Source: Allorhizobium borbori
GTDB taxonomy: Bacteria; Pseudomonadota; Alphaproteobacteria; Rhizobiales; Rhizobiaceae
Assembly: GCF_014196535.1 (NCBI RefSeq)
Contig: NZ_JACIDU010000018.1
Span: 42,905 to 106,904 of the forward strand
Direction: 5' to 3'
Length of the DNA stretch: 64,000 nt
Below are positions 24,387 through 27,756 of this stretch, one piece after another. Each line of letters starts with the position of its first letter. Position 1 is the first letter of the stretch. Both the position numbers and the translations under genes were made by a program. The notes under the pieces are model-generated. The model searched no databases. It saw only the letters and a program-made list of their open reading frames with translations, and was not told where the DNA came from.

Positions 24387-25505
24387 ATGAGCAACAGCAT
24401 GGACCGCAGACGCTTCCTGTCCGGCGGCGCAATGGCCGGCGCGGCGGCTGCGGCATCGGCCGCAACACTGGCCACCCCGGCGCTTGCGCAGTCGTCGCCG
24501 AATATCCGCTGGCGTCTGACGTCAGGCTTCCCGAACAACCTCGACACCATCTATGGCGGTGCCGTGGTCATGGCGAACGCGGTGAAGGCCATCACCGGCG
24601 GCAAGTTCGAAATCCAGGTATTTCAGGCCGGTGAACTCGTGCCCGGCGGTCAGGCCATTGACGCGGTGAAGAACAACACCGTCGAAATCGCCCACACGTG
24701 CGGCTACTATTTCACGGGCAAGGATCCGACCTTCGCCATCGGCTCCACCATTCCCTTCGGCCTCAATGCCCGCCAGCAGAACGCCTGGCTCTATCACGGC
24801 GGCGGTAACGAAGCCTATGACGCCTTCCTTTCGGATTACGGCGTGATCGGCAAGCCGGGCGGCGCCACGGGCACGCAGATGGGTGGCTGGTATCGCAAGG
24901 AAATCAAGAGCGTCGAAGACCTCAAGGGCCTGAAAATGCGTATCGCCGGCGTTGCCGGTCAGGTCATGGCCAAGCTCGGCGCCGTGCCGCAGCAGCTTCC
25001 GGGCGGCGACATCTATCCGGCGCTCGAACGCGGCACCATCGATGCCGCCGAATGGGTCGGCCCCTATGACGACGAAAAGCTCGGCTTCTACCAGATTGCG
25101 CCCTATTATTACTATCCGGCCTTCTGGGAAGGTGGCCTCACCATCCACTTCTTCATCAACAAGGACCAGTACGCCGCCCTTCCGGACGAGTACAAGGCCG
25201 CGCTCGATACCGCCTGCAAGGCAGCCAACATCAACATGCAGGCACTGTACGACGTGAAGAACAAGGATGCGATCCGTTCGCTCGTGTCCAAGGGCACTCA
25301 GCTTCGCCCGATGCCGCGCGATGTGCTGGATGCAGCCTACAAGGCGACCTTCGAGCTCTACGACGAGTACAGCCAGAAGTATCCTGCCTGGGCAAAGATC
25401 TATCCCGGCTGGAAGAAGTTCCGCGACGAGAGCTACGAATGGTTCCGTGTCGCTGAATACACCTTCGATAGCTACGGCTATGCCATGCAGGCCGCCGGCA
25501 AGTAA
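24387..25505 (+). CDS. TRAP solute-binding protein, TakP type, with Tat signal
   Basis: This 372-residue receptor starts at ATG 24387 after a near-perfect AAGGAGGAGG. The leader has a twin-arginine motif (D-R-R-R-F-L, residues 6-11) before a long Ala-rich segment ending ALAQ, so it is probably exported folded by the Tat pathway. The family block DAAEWVGPYDDEKLGF and the GLKMRIAGVAGQVMAKLGA segment match TakP-like 2-oxoacid receptors. It is the last gene of the operon and is followed by a strong terminator. The ligand is probably a 2-oxo or related carboxylic acid; that is inferred from the family. Confidence 0.9.
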   Translation: MSNSMDRRRFLSGGAMAGAAAAASAATLATPALAQSSPNIRWRLTSGFPNNLDTIYGGAVVMANAVKAITGGKFEIQVFQAGELVPGGQAIDAVKNNTVEIAHTCGYYFTGKDPTFAIGSTIPFGLNARQQNAWLYHGGGNEAYDAFLSDYGVIGKPGGATGTQMGGWYRKEIKSVEDLKGLKMRIAGVAGQVMAKLGAVPQQLPGGDIYPALERGTIDAAEWVGPYDDEKLGFYQIAPYYYYPAFWEGGLTIHFFINKDQYAALPDEYKAALDTACKAANINMQALYDVKNKDAIRSLVSKGTQLRPMPRDVLDAAYKATFELYDEYSQKYPAWAKIYPGWKKFRDESYEWFRVAEYTFDSYGYAMQAAGK

Positions 25506-25535
25506 GCAGACCGTCGCCGGAAATACGAGTGATAG

Positions 25536-25568
25536 CCCCCGAATGCAGCCATTCGGGGGTTTCATTTT
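25536..25568 (+). terminator. Rho-independent terminator after the TRAP operon
   Basis: A 10-bp perfect stem (CCCCCGAATG/CATTCGGGGG) with the loop CAGC is followed by TTTCATTTT. It separates the TRAP operon from the corA leader region. Confidence 0.85.
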
Positions 25569-25667
25569 GACAGGATCGAATGGATGCAGAATCTGCTTGA
25601 CCTGAAACGGAGACAGGCGCATGTGCGTCGCGCGCGCTTCTGCGTGAATTTCAAAGGAACCGTAAAG

Positions 25668-25721
25668 ATGGACCCCGACAGTCGAAGTTTTCGACCGCTG
25701 TCTGCCGCCCTGTCCGGTTAA
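25668..25721 (+). CDS. Putative 17-residue leader peptide upstream of corA
   Basis: This short ORF encodes MDPDSRSFRPLSAALSG. It has its own ribosome-binding site (AAGGA, nine bases upstream) and ends 52 bases before the corA start. The N-terminus mixes acidic residues with proline (D-P-D), as in the Salmonella Mg-sensing leader peptide MgtL, which also has 17 residues. I see no other role for it. The regulatory reading rests on position, the ribosome-binding site, composition and the adjacent hairpin. The sequence is too short to prove coding. Confidence 0.5.
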   Translation: MDPDSRSFRPLSAALSG

Positions 25722-25735
25722 GGGATGATCCATCC

Positions 25736-25768
25736 TGCTCCGGGCGGGCCATAAGCCCAAAAGGAGCA
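25736..25768 (+). promoter_or_regulatory. Hairpin masking the corA ribosome-binding site
   Basis: TGCTCC (25736-25741) pairs with GGAGCA (25763-25768), which contains the corA GGAG. Inside it, GGGC can pair with GCCC (25755-25758). The structure lies 14 bases after the leader stop codon, so ribosome occupancy of the leader could change whether the site is exposed. Confidence 0.45.
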
Positions 25769-25773
25769 TACCC

Positions 25774-26769
25774 ATGCTGCGCATGTTCGTTCGCGAGACG
25801 GATCGTCTTGTCCTGCGTGAAAACCTGCCGGAAACGCTGGCCGAAGCCGTAAACCCGGTGATCTGGTACGACCTGCTGAACCCGACGCCGGACGAAGCCC
25901 GGCAGGTCGAGGTCGCACTTGGCCTTTCCGTTCCCACCCGCGACGAGATGGAGGAGATCGAGCTTTCGGCCCGCCTCTATCAGGAAAACGGCGCGAACTT
26001 CATGACGCTGACTGCCCTCATCGTCACTGACGGCGGCGAGCCCGGCAAAACGCCGATCACCTTCATCCTCAAGGACAAGGTTCTCGTAACCGTGCGCTAT
26101 GCGGTGGCGCGGCCCTTCGATCTTTTCGTGGCACGCGCCCGCCATGCCGGTAACGGCCAGATCTACAGCAGCGGTGAGCCGATCATGCTTGGTCTCATCG
26201 AAGCGCTGACCGATCGGCTGGCCGATATTCTGGAGCGCGTGGGCAACGAGATCGACGTGATTTCGCGCAGCGTGTTTCGCGGGCAGAGCAGCAGCGCCCA
26301 GAAGAAGACCAATGACCTCCAGTCGCTGATCGAGCAACTTGGACAGAAGGGTGATTTCCTTGGCGGCGTTCGCGAAAGCATGGTCTCCATCTCACGCCTT
26401 GTGACCTATCACGGCGCGCTGGAAGGGCCGGGCCGCAAGCCGACGAAGGAATCGCGCCAGATGGTGAAGCTTCTGCAGCGCGATGCGGTTTCGCTTGGCG
26501 ATCACGCCACGTTCCTGTCCGGCAAGGTCAACTTCCTGCTCGATGCGACGCTCGGACTGATCAACCTGGAACAGAACCAGATCATCAAGATCTTCACCGT
26601 CGCCTCAGTCGTTTTCTTGCCGCCGACGCTGGTTGCATCGGTCTACGGCATGAACTTCGAGGCCATGCCGGAACTGCAATGGCATCTTGGTTATCCCTGG
26701 GCTGTCCTGCTGATGATCGCCTCGGCCGCCCTGCCGTTCTACTTTTTCAAGCGCCGCGGCTGGCTCTGA
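25774..26769 (+). CDS. corA: CorA-type magnesium/divalent cation channel
   Basis: This 331-residue protein is a CorA/MIT family Mg2+ channel. A cytoplasmic N-terminal domain leads into a long helical stalk, then two C-terminal helices. The selectivity motif is at residues 291-294 (YGMN), and the protein ends with the basic tail KRRGWL. GGAG lies seven bases before ATG 25774 but can be masked by a hairpin. The gene follows a leader ORF, so expression probably responds to Mg2+ or translation state. It stands alone after a terminator. Confidence 0.92.
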   Translation: MLRMFVRETDRLVLRENLPETLAEAVNPVIWYDLLNPTPDEARQVEVALGLSVPTRDEMEEIELSARLYQENGANFMTLTALIVTDGGEPGKTPITFILKDKVLVTVRYAVARPFDLFVARARHAGNGQIYSSGEPIMLGLIEALTDRLADILERVGNEIDVISRSVFRGQSSSAQKKTNDLQSLIEQLGQKGDFLGGVRESMVSISRLVTYHGALEGPGRKPTKESRQMVKLLQRDAVSLGDHATFLSGKVNFLLDATLGLINLEQNQIIKIFTVASVVFLPPTLVASVYGMNFEAMPELQWHLGYPWAVLLMIASAALPFYFFKRRGWL

Positions 26770-26793: not shown

Positions 26794-27588
26794 TCATGCG
26801 TTGCTGGAAGGCTGTTCGGCGTGGTCGGCGCCGGCCAGCATCCTCTCCAACCCGGCAAGCTGGGCGTGATGGAGAAGCAGTACGTTGAGCTTGCCGGCAA
26901 GCTGGCGGGCGGCGCGGGTGTAATCCGTCGGTGCGACGACGGCGGCATGGGTGGCGTCGATGAAGGCGGCGGCGGCATGCACCTCCTGAATGGCCTTGTT
27001 GCCGACGGCGCTGGAGTGCAGCTTGCATTGCAGCGCCACCTTGATGCCGTTTTTGACCGCAACGACATCGACGCCCTGATCGCCGGACGACCGGGTGGCC
27101 TCGGCTTTCCAGCCACAACGGGCAAGCTGGCTGGCGCACCAGCGCTCATATTCGTATGGGTCGGCGGAGGAAAAACGTCCGCCGGCCGATGTTGCGTCCG
27201 CGTCCTCGGCCCACCCCCTGACGCGTTCCGTCAGTTCCGCATCAAAGAGCGCAATGCGATCCGGCGCACCGGCAATGCCGGTACTGGCGCGAAAACGGTC
27301 CAGTTCCTTGGTCCAGGATTTCATCTCCAGTCCGCCATAAGGATTGCGGCTGACAAGCTGCCGATAGCGTAGCGACAGCGCTTCCCGATGTTCCAGACCA
27401 GCGGCATGCCAACGCCGCATCTCATTCGCGTCGCGCGCCTTATCGGAAAGGCGGGCGAAAAACCACCAGACAAACGCGATGATGACCGGCACCAGCAGGC
27501 CCATACCGAAGAAGAAGGGCCAATAATGCCAACCATAAAGCCAGGACAACGCCCCGGCAACGGCGACACCGAAAGCCAACAGGTACAT
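26794..27588 (-). CDS. Membrane-anchored Mrr-like nuclease-domain protein
   Basis: This 264-residue protein has two predicted membrane helices at about residues 3-20 and 23-45, then a charged linker. Its C-terminal Mrr-type restriction endonuclease fold starts near residue 143. The PD-(D/E)xK core is visible as Glu146/Glu148 (PYEYERW), Asp174 (GDQGVD) and Gln187-x-Lys189 (LQCK). I chose ATG 27588 because GAGG lies nine bases upstream. It is an orphan with no methylase or defence partner nearby. A membrane-tethered nuclease could act on incoming DNA or in housekeeping; activity is inferred from the intact motif. Confidence 0.75.
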   Translation of the reverse strand: MYLLAFGVAVAGALSWLYGWHYWPFFFGMGLLVPVIIAFVWWFFARLSDKARDANEMRRWHAAGLEHREALSLRYRQLVSRNPYGGLEMKSWTKELDRFRASTGIAGAPDRIALFDAELTERVRGWAEDADATSAGGRFSSADPYEYERWCASQLARCGWKAEATRSSGDQGVDVVAVKNGIKVALQCKLHSSAVGNKAIQEVHAAAAFIDATHAAVVAPTDYTRAARQLAGKLNVLLLHHAQLAGLERMLAGADHAEQPSSNA

Positions 27589-27756
27589 GAAATAATGCCT
27601 CTTCCCGATCCGTCTTCCACGACAGATGACTGTCACCTGCCGAATGTGTGTTCCTTGTATGTTCTCATATTGAAGGCTGTGCTGGCAAGGGGCCGAAAGA
27701 TGTTGGCGGTGTTTTCCGCAGCTTTGTGTGCGGCCTGACCGATATGGAGCCTGCAC

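Follow-up and report, generated by a model that had tools for sequence, protein, structure and literature searches.

The window, by which the whole 64,000-nucleotide stretch of DNA analysed here is meant, carries on its plus strand a corA gene (25774-26769; ATG at 25774, stop codon at 26767-26769) encoding a CorA-type Mg2+ channel of 331 amino acids. The product matched PF01544 with 171 bits, against a cut-off of 27, and the NCBIfam CorA model TIGR00383 with 196.8 bits, slightly below the cut-off of 200.75. The 5' neighbour of the corA leader region is a TRAP-transporter binding-protein gene (PF03480). A gene for an Mrr-type restriction endonuclease domain (26794-27756, minus strand; PF04471, 73.8 bits) lies convergent with corA.

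A 17-codon frame, MDPDSRSFRPLSAALSG followed by a stop codon, precedes corA on the same strand (25668-25721; ATG at 25668, TAA at 25719-25721), and its own Shine-Dalgarno (SD) sequence, AAGGA (25654-25658, plus strand), is separated from the ATG by a 9-nt spacer. Between the two frames, an RBS-masking hairpin (25736-25768, plus strand) consists of an outer stem, TGCTCC at 25736-25741 with GGAGCA at 25763-25768, and an apical stem, GGGC at 25746-25749 with GCCC at 25755-25758, and it covers the corA SD sequence AAGGAG (25761-25766). An earlier, sequence-only reading of this DNA had proposed this frame with its AAGGA, a terminator upstream of it, and the hairpin 14 bases past the leader stop. 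Letter-by-letter checking found the coordinates of the frame and of the hairpin exact to the base, and a sequence scan placed a terminator-like stem-loop at 25534-25561, upstream of the predicted promoter.

Further segments on the plus strand can pair with one another. Region 1, GACAG in codons 4-5 (25677-25681), can pair with CTGTC at 25698-25702 or at 25710-25714, both within the leader frame. Region 2, CCTGTCCGG, at the end of the leader frame (25709-25717), pairs with region 3, CCGGGCGGG (25740-25748), which takes in part of the hairpin's masking strand and part of its apical stem. The hairpin, in which region 3 pairs with the SD strand (region 4), is referred to as the OFF fold, and the 2:3 pairing as the alternative ON fold. 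A perfect complement of at least 6 bp to an SD-like hexamer within 60 nt upstream was present for 5 of the 87 window open frames of at least 150 amino acids (a set that includes spurious frames), corA among them; this count, together with the conservation in relatives, places the corA arrangement above chance. No Rfam family reached its gathering score anywhere in the window, and the stretch 25500-25830, scanned at E≤5, yielded three matches, each lying before the leader and scoring far under the gathering cut-off. The reading of the region as a known Rfam cis-regulatory element was rejected.

Distribution and conservation of the leader frame

One genome per species was scanned for corA relatives; 492 were confirmed and the closest 80 were used. 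A leader-frame start was found upstream of corA in 79 of these best 80 of 492, the exception (L080) coming from a metagenome bin. A script placed 78 of the leaders, and one more (L049), in which corA had been given a start too far downstream, was recognised by eye. Among the 78 scripted leaders from the best 80 of 492 relatives, the N-termini were MNPDSR (48), MDPDSR (23) and MDPSSR (2), with MDTDSR (2), MNPDGR (2) and MDSDSR (1) as rarer forms. Conservation of the N-terminus and of the stop, which the sequence-only reading had put forward as a check on its proposal, was borne out in this same set: 71/78 begin with M[D/N]PDSR, and 77/78 close after 12-19 codons, L034 alone having no stop before corA. 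Genera represented among these relatives include Ciceribacter, Shinella, Ensifer/Sinorhizobium, Pararhizobium, Neorhizobium, Rhizobium and Xaviernesmea.

The acidic residues of the start motif vary. In the 78 scripted leaders (best 80 of 492), position 2 is Asn in 50; Asp2 and Asp4 occur together in 26, the type to which the window leader belongs, and Asp2 occurs without Asp4 in 2. None of the 78 lacks Asp at both positions. As both Asp residues are found in just 26/78, the pair of acidic residues that marks a ribosome-destabilising peptide of the MgtL/mgtQ type, placed among codons 1-5, is a feature of the window leader (Asp2, Asp4) and not of the leader family as a whole.

Searches made independently of corA led back to it. 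A DNA pattern for the first 18 bases of the leader matched 51 of 394 family genomes, against 2 of 394 for a reversed-pattern control, and 29 of the 30 matches fetched from these 51 sit 94-254 nt before a same-strand corA homologue. When 247 family genomes were searched with a covariance model made from 9 leaders, 28 places came up: 25 at corA and three weak ones elsewhere. Over 297 genomes of the order, the model found five places, of which two are in the family, two are in other families and one (L171) is a weak match without corA. By pattern and by model alike, the window's own genome has a single leader copy. As judged from these genomes, the leader frame is tied to corA beyond chance.

The two places in other families, L169 (G483) and L170 (G589), have an MNPDSR leader directly before a corA whose product is 65% and 60% identical, respectively, to the CorA of the window, although the CorA homologues of G040, which belongs to the same genus as G483, are just 46% and 44% identical. 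This looks like transfer of leader and corA together.

Some loci depart from the common form. At L084 (G005), inspection by eye revealed a broken leader with altered start codon and SD sequence beside a retained hairpin, GGGCTCC/GGAGCCC, an apparent natural loss of the leader. A divergent leader upstream of corA at L157 (G212), found by the covariance model and read by eye as MMQADGRRPGLN before its stop, may reveal which residues are dispensable. The 260 nt before 24 more distant CorA homologues (L085-L108, 37.9-50.3% identity) were examined for ATG frames of 6-25 codons preceded by an SD-like motif, and none of the frames listed starts M[D/N]PD. At one of these loci, L096 (G031), a corA of 45% identity is preceded at 102 nt by the frame MQPELYELF, which has an SD-like motif and whose Pro3-Glu4 recalls [D/N]PD; the frame might be a cousin of the M[D/N]PDSR leaders. 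In 40 genomes of that genus, a pattern of this type matched about as often as its reversed control, and it misses G031 itself, where codon 5 is TTG and the pattern wanted CTN.

For closer comparison, 40 diverse relatives were taken by a greedy diversity pick from 84 rows after removal of duplicate sequences; L034 (frame open to corA) and L068, L070, L074 and L130 (corA start too early) were left out. The leader starts with ATG in 40/40, which proves little since the search patterns require ATG. An SD-like motif precedes it in 38/40. In all 40 a frame-0 stop follows after 12-22 codons, and in 37 of them after 15-19, whereas closure of frames +1 and +2 is scattered over 0-58 codons, the largest values being capped by a stop search that ends 60 nt inside corA. 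Purifying selection on the whole peptide, which bears on the synonymous changes also named as a check by the sequence-only reading, was considered and rejected: pN/pS for frame 0 against frame +1 in four length sets was 0.55/0.75, 0.76/0.62, 0.41/1.35 and 0.71/0.73, so that the in-frame values (0.41-0.76) are not consistently lower, and no coding claim is built on them.

Conservation of residues is confined to roughly the first six, and the sequence past codon 8 is highly variable. Relative to its sister G001, whose peptide is MDPDSRSSTDVCRPVR, the window leader carries two insertions, of 2 bases at codons 7-8 and of 1 base shortly before the stop, and the C-terminal half of its peptide is therefore in a different frame. 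The likeness that the sequence-only reading had drawn to a 17-residue, Pro-rich leader is thus partly accidental. Despite both insertions the stop lies at the same RNA position as in G001, which is weak evidence for its retention because, without the second insertion, a stop comes three codons later.

Within the conserved start, AGT (Ser5) and CGA (Arg6) are each kept in 39 of the 40 diverse relatives; in 35 long window frames both are uncommon, AGT having a share of 6.4% among Ser codons and CGA one of 11% among Arg codons. The segment GACAGTCGA (25677-25685), which spans both, is almost letter-for-letter constant across relatives, and this constraint exceeds what the pairings found here account for. 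To judge from this, the first six leader codons are constrained as RNA too.

The leader is likely part of the corA transcript, as 38/40 relatives have a TTGA[CA] box 45-90 nt before the leader start codon, compared with 26/760 control windows inside corA. In the window, the predicted promoter (25597-25625, plus strand) comprises TTGACC at 25597-25602, a 17-nt spacer and CATGTG at 25620-25625. A simple sigma-70 scan reported no promoter at 25597-25625, indicating that the -10 is weak. The predicted transcript start falls near 25632, upstream of the leader, and a corA transcript starting downstream of 25721 is disfavoured by the same promoter sequences. A weak stem-loop lies near the predicted 5' end (25633-25646, plus strand; z 0.1). 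It is stronger in many relatives, the stem-loop right after the predicted start having z<-1 in 29/41 leaders, and in many of them the sequence changes yet the folding is kept. A mini-frame in this part of the window, MCVARASA (25621-25647), was discarded: it overlaps the predicted -10 and falls where relatives have the promoter and the 5' hairpin, its own conservation being judged by eye alone.

Competing pairings and ribosome position

The stretch between the leader stop and corA folds more stably than dinucleotide shuffles, with a median z of -2.68 and 80 of 87 leaders below -1, in a set that still contains L068, L070 and L074. Covariation was assessed over nine pairs and 50 rows, in an alignment fitted to the structure and with 90 of 450 cells gapped; 90.3% of cells are paired, against 34-51% in slid controls, and two-sided changes affect 6/9 pairs (37 cells). 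The realignment matched 49 of 50 sources, L084 being unmatched, and the 50 rows include the nine model-building leaders as well as a second, partial hit within L131, which does not represent a leader. Outer-stem variants seen by eye include GCTCC:GGAGC, GGGTTTC:GGAACCC (L035) and GGAGTTCC:GGAACTCC (L114). Conservation of the hairpin pairing, a further check suggested by the sequence-only reading, is hence upheld, and these data support a conserved hairpin that would mask the corA SD sequence across relatives.

The sequence-only reading had not noted that the last part of the leader frame (region 2) can also base-pair with the masking side of this hairpin (region 3): CCTGTCCGG pairs with CCGGGCGGG in the window, as TCGACCGTC does with GGCGGTCGA in L035. 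Since region 3 is shared by region 2 and the SD strand, the two foldings are mutually exclusive. When partners were swapped among the 40 relatives, in a permutation that takes no account of relatedness, native partners gave -19.05 kcal/mol against -14.64 for swapped ones for 3:4, and -20.05 against -16.79 kcal/mol for 2:3 (0/5000 permutations in each case). The native partner was within the best 10% of swaps in 17/40 relatives for 3:4 and in 16/40 for 2:3. Compared with shuffles, the mean z over the 40 relatives was -2.18 and -2.35 for 3:4 and -1.41 for 2:3. Pairings of regions not meant to pair, used as controls, gave mean z of -0.06 and -0.01 and swap p of 0.19-0.98. Within two clades, 82% and 84% of cells in the 2:3 helix are paired (slid controls 19-67%), and two-sided changes there, in 2 and 1 of 9 pairs, are not above shuffles.

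The 1:2 pairing inside the frame has a mean z of -0.94, with 13/40 relatives below -1 and none above +1, suggesting that the start of the leader frame can pair weakly with its own end. As a partner-specific helix, 1:2 was not supported by the swaps (p 0.88 over 40 relatives).

Folding was then predicted for the 40 relatives with a 30-nt ribosome footprint, and results are given as medians of pair probabilities. With no ribosome, 2:3 is 0.05 and 3:4 is 0.97; a ribosome at codon 2 gives 0.72 and 0.58, and a ribosome three codons before the leader end gives 0 and 1.0, respectively. On passage from codon 4 to three codons before the end, 2:3 drops in 33/40 relatives and increases in none, while 3:4 increases in 28/40 and drops in 2; in the other 7/40, 2:3 is unchanged. 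In several relatives, L030, L031, L035 and L128 among them, 2:3 with the ribosome at codon 4 is lower than without a ribosome. In the window, 2:3 is 1.0 already without a ribosome and 0 with a ribosome near the end, so that translation of the leader would itself be the off-signal there. SD accessibility, for which the median over 84 leaders climbs again to 0.10 with the ribosome on the last sense codon, is averaged over four bases and is a cruder and poor read-out; pair probabilities were therefore used.

Proposed attenuation of corA and alternative explanations

What the sequence itself shows is the association of corA with a leader frame that has its own SD, the complementarity of region 2 to region 3 and of region 3 to region 4, and the capacity of region 1 to pair with region 2. 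We consider it probable that the ~140 bases before corA form a leader-peptide attenuator acting on corA translation, with early drop-off or pausing on [D/N]-P-D, probably at low Mg2+, as the predicted trigger. In the folding model, a ribosome near the end of the leader would cover region 2, leaving region 3 to pair with the SD (region 4) and corA shut, and a ribosome that halts or drops at codons 1-4 would leave region 2 freer to take up region 3, so that the SD opens. By analogy with mgtL, where acidic residues and Pro act, and with mgtQ, where acidic residues do, ample Mg2+ would permit complete translation of the leader and CorA would be repressed; at low Mg2+, failure within M-[D/N]-P-D would switch corA on. 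Of what the sequence-only reading had proposed, the leader, the RBS hairpin and their joint conservation before corA are supported, while Mg2+ as the signal is plausible by analogy only.

The main objection to a Mg2+ signal is that Asn occupies position 2 in 50/78 leaders (best 80 of 492), considered together with a result for MgtL, in which changing both acidic residues of EPDP to amides abolished detectable expression of an mgtA reporter (PMC11282234). Either one Asp beside Pro suffices, or pausing at the rare codons AGT-CGA matters, or the signal is not Mg2+. The second option corresponds to an otherwise identical attenuator triggered by slow decoding of the uncommon AGT-CGA (Ser5-Arg6) or by charged-tRNA level, and not by Mg2+-dependent destabilisation. 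We regard this trigger as unlikely. The retention of both uncommon codons and the frequent replacement of Asp2 by Asn speak for it, but codon 6 is the synonym AGA in three loci (L010, L011 and L029), RNA pairing of GACAGTCGA may equally explain the codon invariance, and the gene after the motif is a CorA homologue in 29/30 and 25/28 cases, not an amino-acid gene. That structured RNA alone controls corA, for instance as a Mg2+- or protein-responsive hairpin beside an incidental short frame, would agree with the strong covariation of the RBS hairpin and with a constraint in the frame that is nucleotide-level and not clearly codon-level. This explanation also appears quite unlikely, given an SD and a narrow stop position that are kept for frame 0 unlike other frames; retention of the window stop despite the 2- and 1-base insertions points weakly the same way.

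Rho-dependent transcription termination, with the SD hairpin secondary, has precedents in enterobacterial CorL and MgtL on Mg2+ transporter genes, as described in the available text of PMC11552253 and PMC11282234. It is improbable here: the corA SD lies within a pairing that is conserved and covaries, an indication of control at translation, and the predicted leader is just ~140 nt. Plain translational coupling, in which a ribosome that completes the leader would open the hairpin or start again at corA, is the least probable of these accounts and would be a real surprise. In its favour, the leader stop lies 43-66 nt from corA in 84 rows, those of the 87 with a well-placed corA start, and SD accessibility is somewhat higher with the ribosome on the last sense codon (median 0.10). 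This distance is nevertheless long for reinitiation, and the 2:3 complementarity would be superfluous.

A broader extension of the attenuator reading is offered tentatively, as possible and somewhat less than probable: the M[D/N]PDSR leaders may be Mg2+ sensors of the Rhizobiaceae's own, with an origin independent of MgtL, MgtQ and CorL, moving between families with corA, in which the Asn2 form would abort ribosomes by a single Asp beside Pro, a destabilising motif undescribed so far. If the attenuator reading is right, the sensing of cytoplasmic Mg2+ by a faltering ribosome would not be confined to enterobacteria. Alphaproteobacteria that fix nitrogen and associate with plants would then have arrived, with an unrelated peptide, at a convergent solution for a CorA-type Mg2+ channel, in which the output is translation, not transcription. 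The natural D2/N2 variation and the apparent loss of the start codon in L084 provide ready tests of which nascent-chain residues count.

Comparison with known leader systems

In trp-type attenuators, the position of the ribosome selects between two foldings, and the system works with a transcription terminator and Trp codons. The corA leader has neither. A rhizobial trpL leader peptide, peTrpL, is described in the available text of PMC10117765, an S. meliloti Ribo-seq paper whose main text does not mention corA, magnesium or Mg2+. A term search likewise returned no mention of corA in the searchable text of PMC11109978 (RNAs in 50 genomes). The statement of the sequence-only reading that it knew of no described equivalent in Rhizobiales agrees with searches of open-licence papers, which turned up no description of a corA leader in Rhizobiales.

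The sequence-only reading had compared the leader with MgtL and CorL. Both are leaders before a Mg2+ transporter gene, but they are not the closest match, since in the available text on both systems they act via Rho, and mgtQ fits better. According to the available text of PMC11282234, the EPDP motif of MgtL, the leader of mgtA, makes ribosomes drop off at low Mg2+, and MgtL acts by Rho-dependent transcription termination in Salmonella and E. coli. Like EPDP in that text, [D/N]PD combines Pro with an acidic residue directly after the start, but it lacks the second Pro and position 2 is often Asn. CorL resembles the rhizobial leader as a frame before corA; its translation reduces corA expression through Rho-dependent termination, and in the available text of PMC11552253 it has a UUG start in E. 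coli and a single reported Pro, with no SD-masking switch described.

A layout in which an exclusive pairing with the last leader codons frees a masked SD corresponds instead to the translational control of mgtB by mgtQ, as far as the available texts describe these systems. Before Salmonella mgtB, a layout of 1:2/3:4 against 2:3 with translational control has experimental support, and through it Asp2 and Glu5 of mgtQ lower leader translation and raise mgtB translation (PMC8092293, available text). According to the same text, Brucella melitensis, which belongs to the same order as the bacterium of the window, also has an mgtQ-like frame before mgtB. Both mgtQ and the corA leader are short frames with an early acidic residue, followed by a 3:4 pairing that masks the RBS of a Mg2+ transporter gene. 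The mgtQ frame described in PMC8092293 comprises 8 codons, among them Asp2 and Glu5, and stands between operon genes, before mgtB, whereas the corA leader has 12-22 codons beginning M[D/N]PDSR and forms a 5' leader before corA; no shared sequence is claimed. The corA leader thus follows the logic of mgtQ with a different peptide, a different gene and a different lineage.
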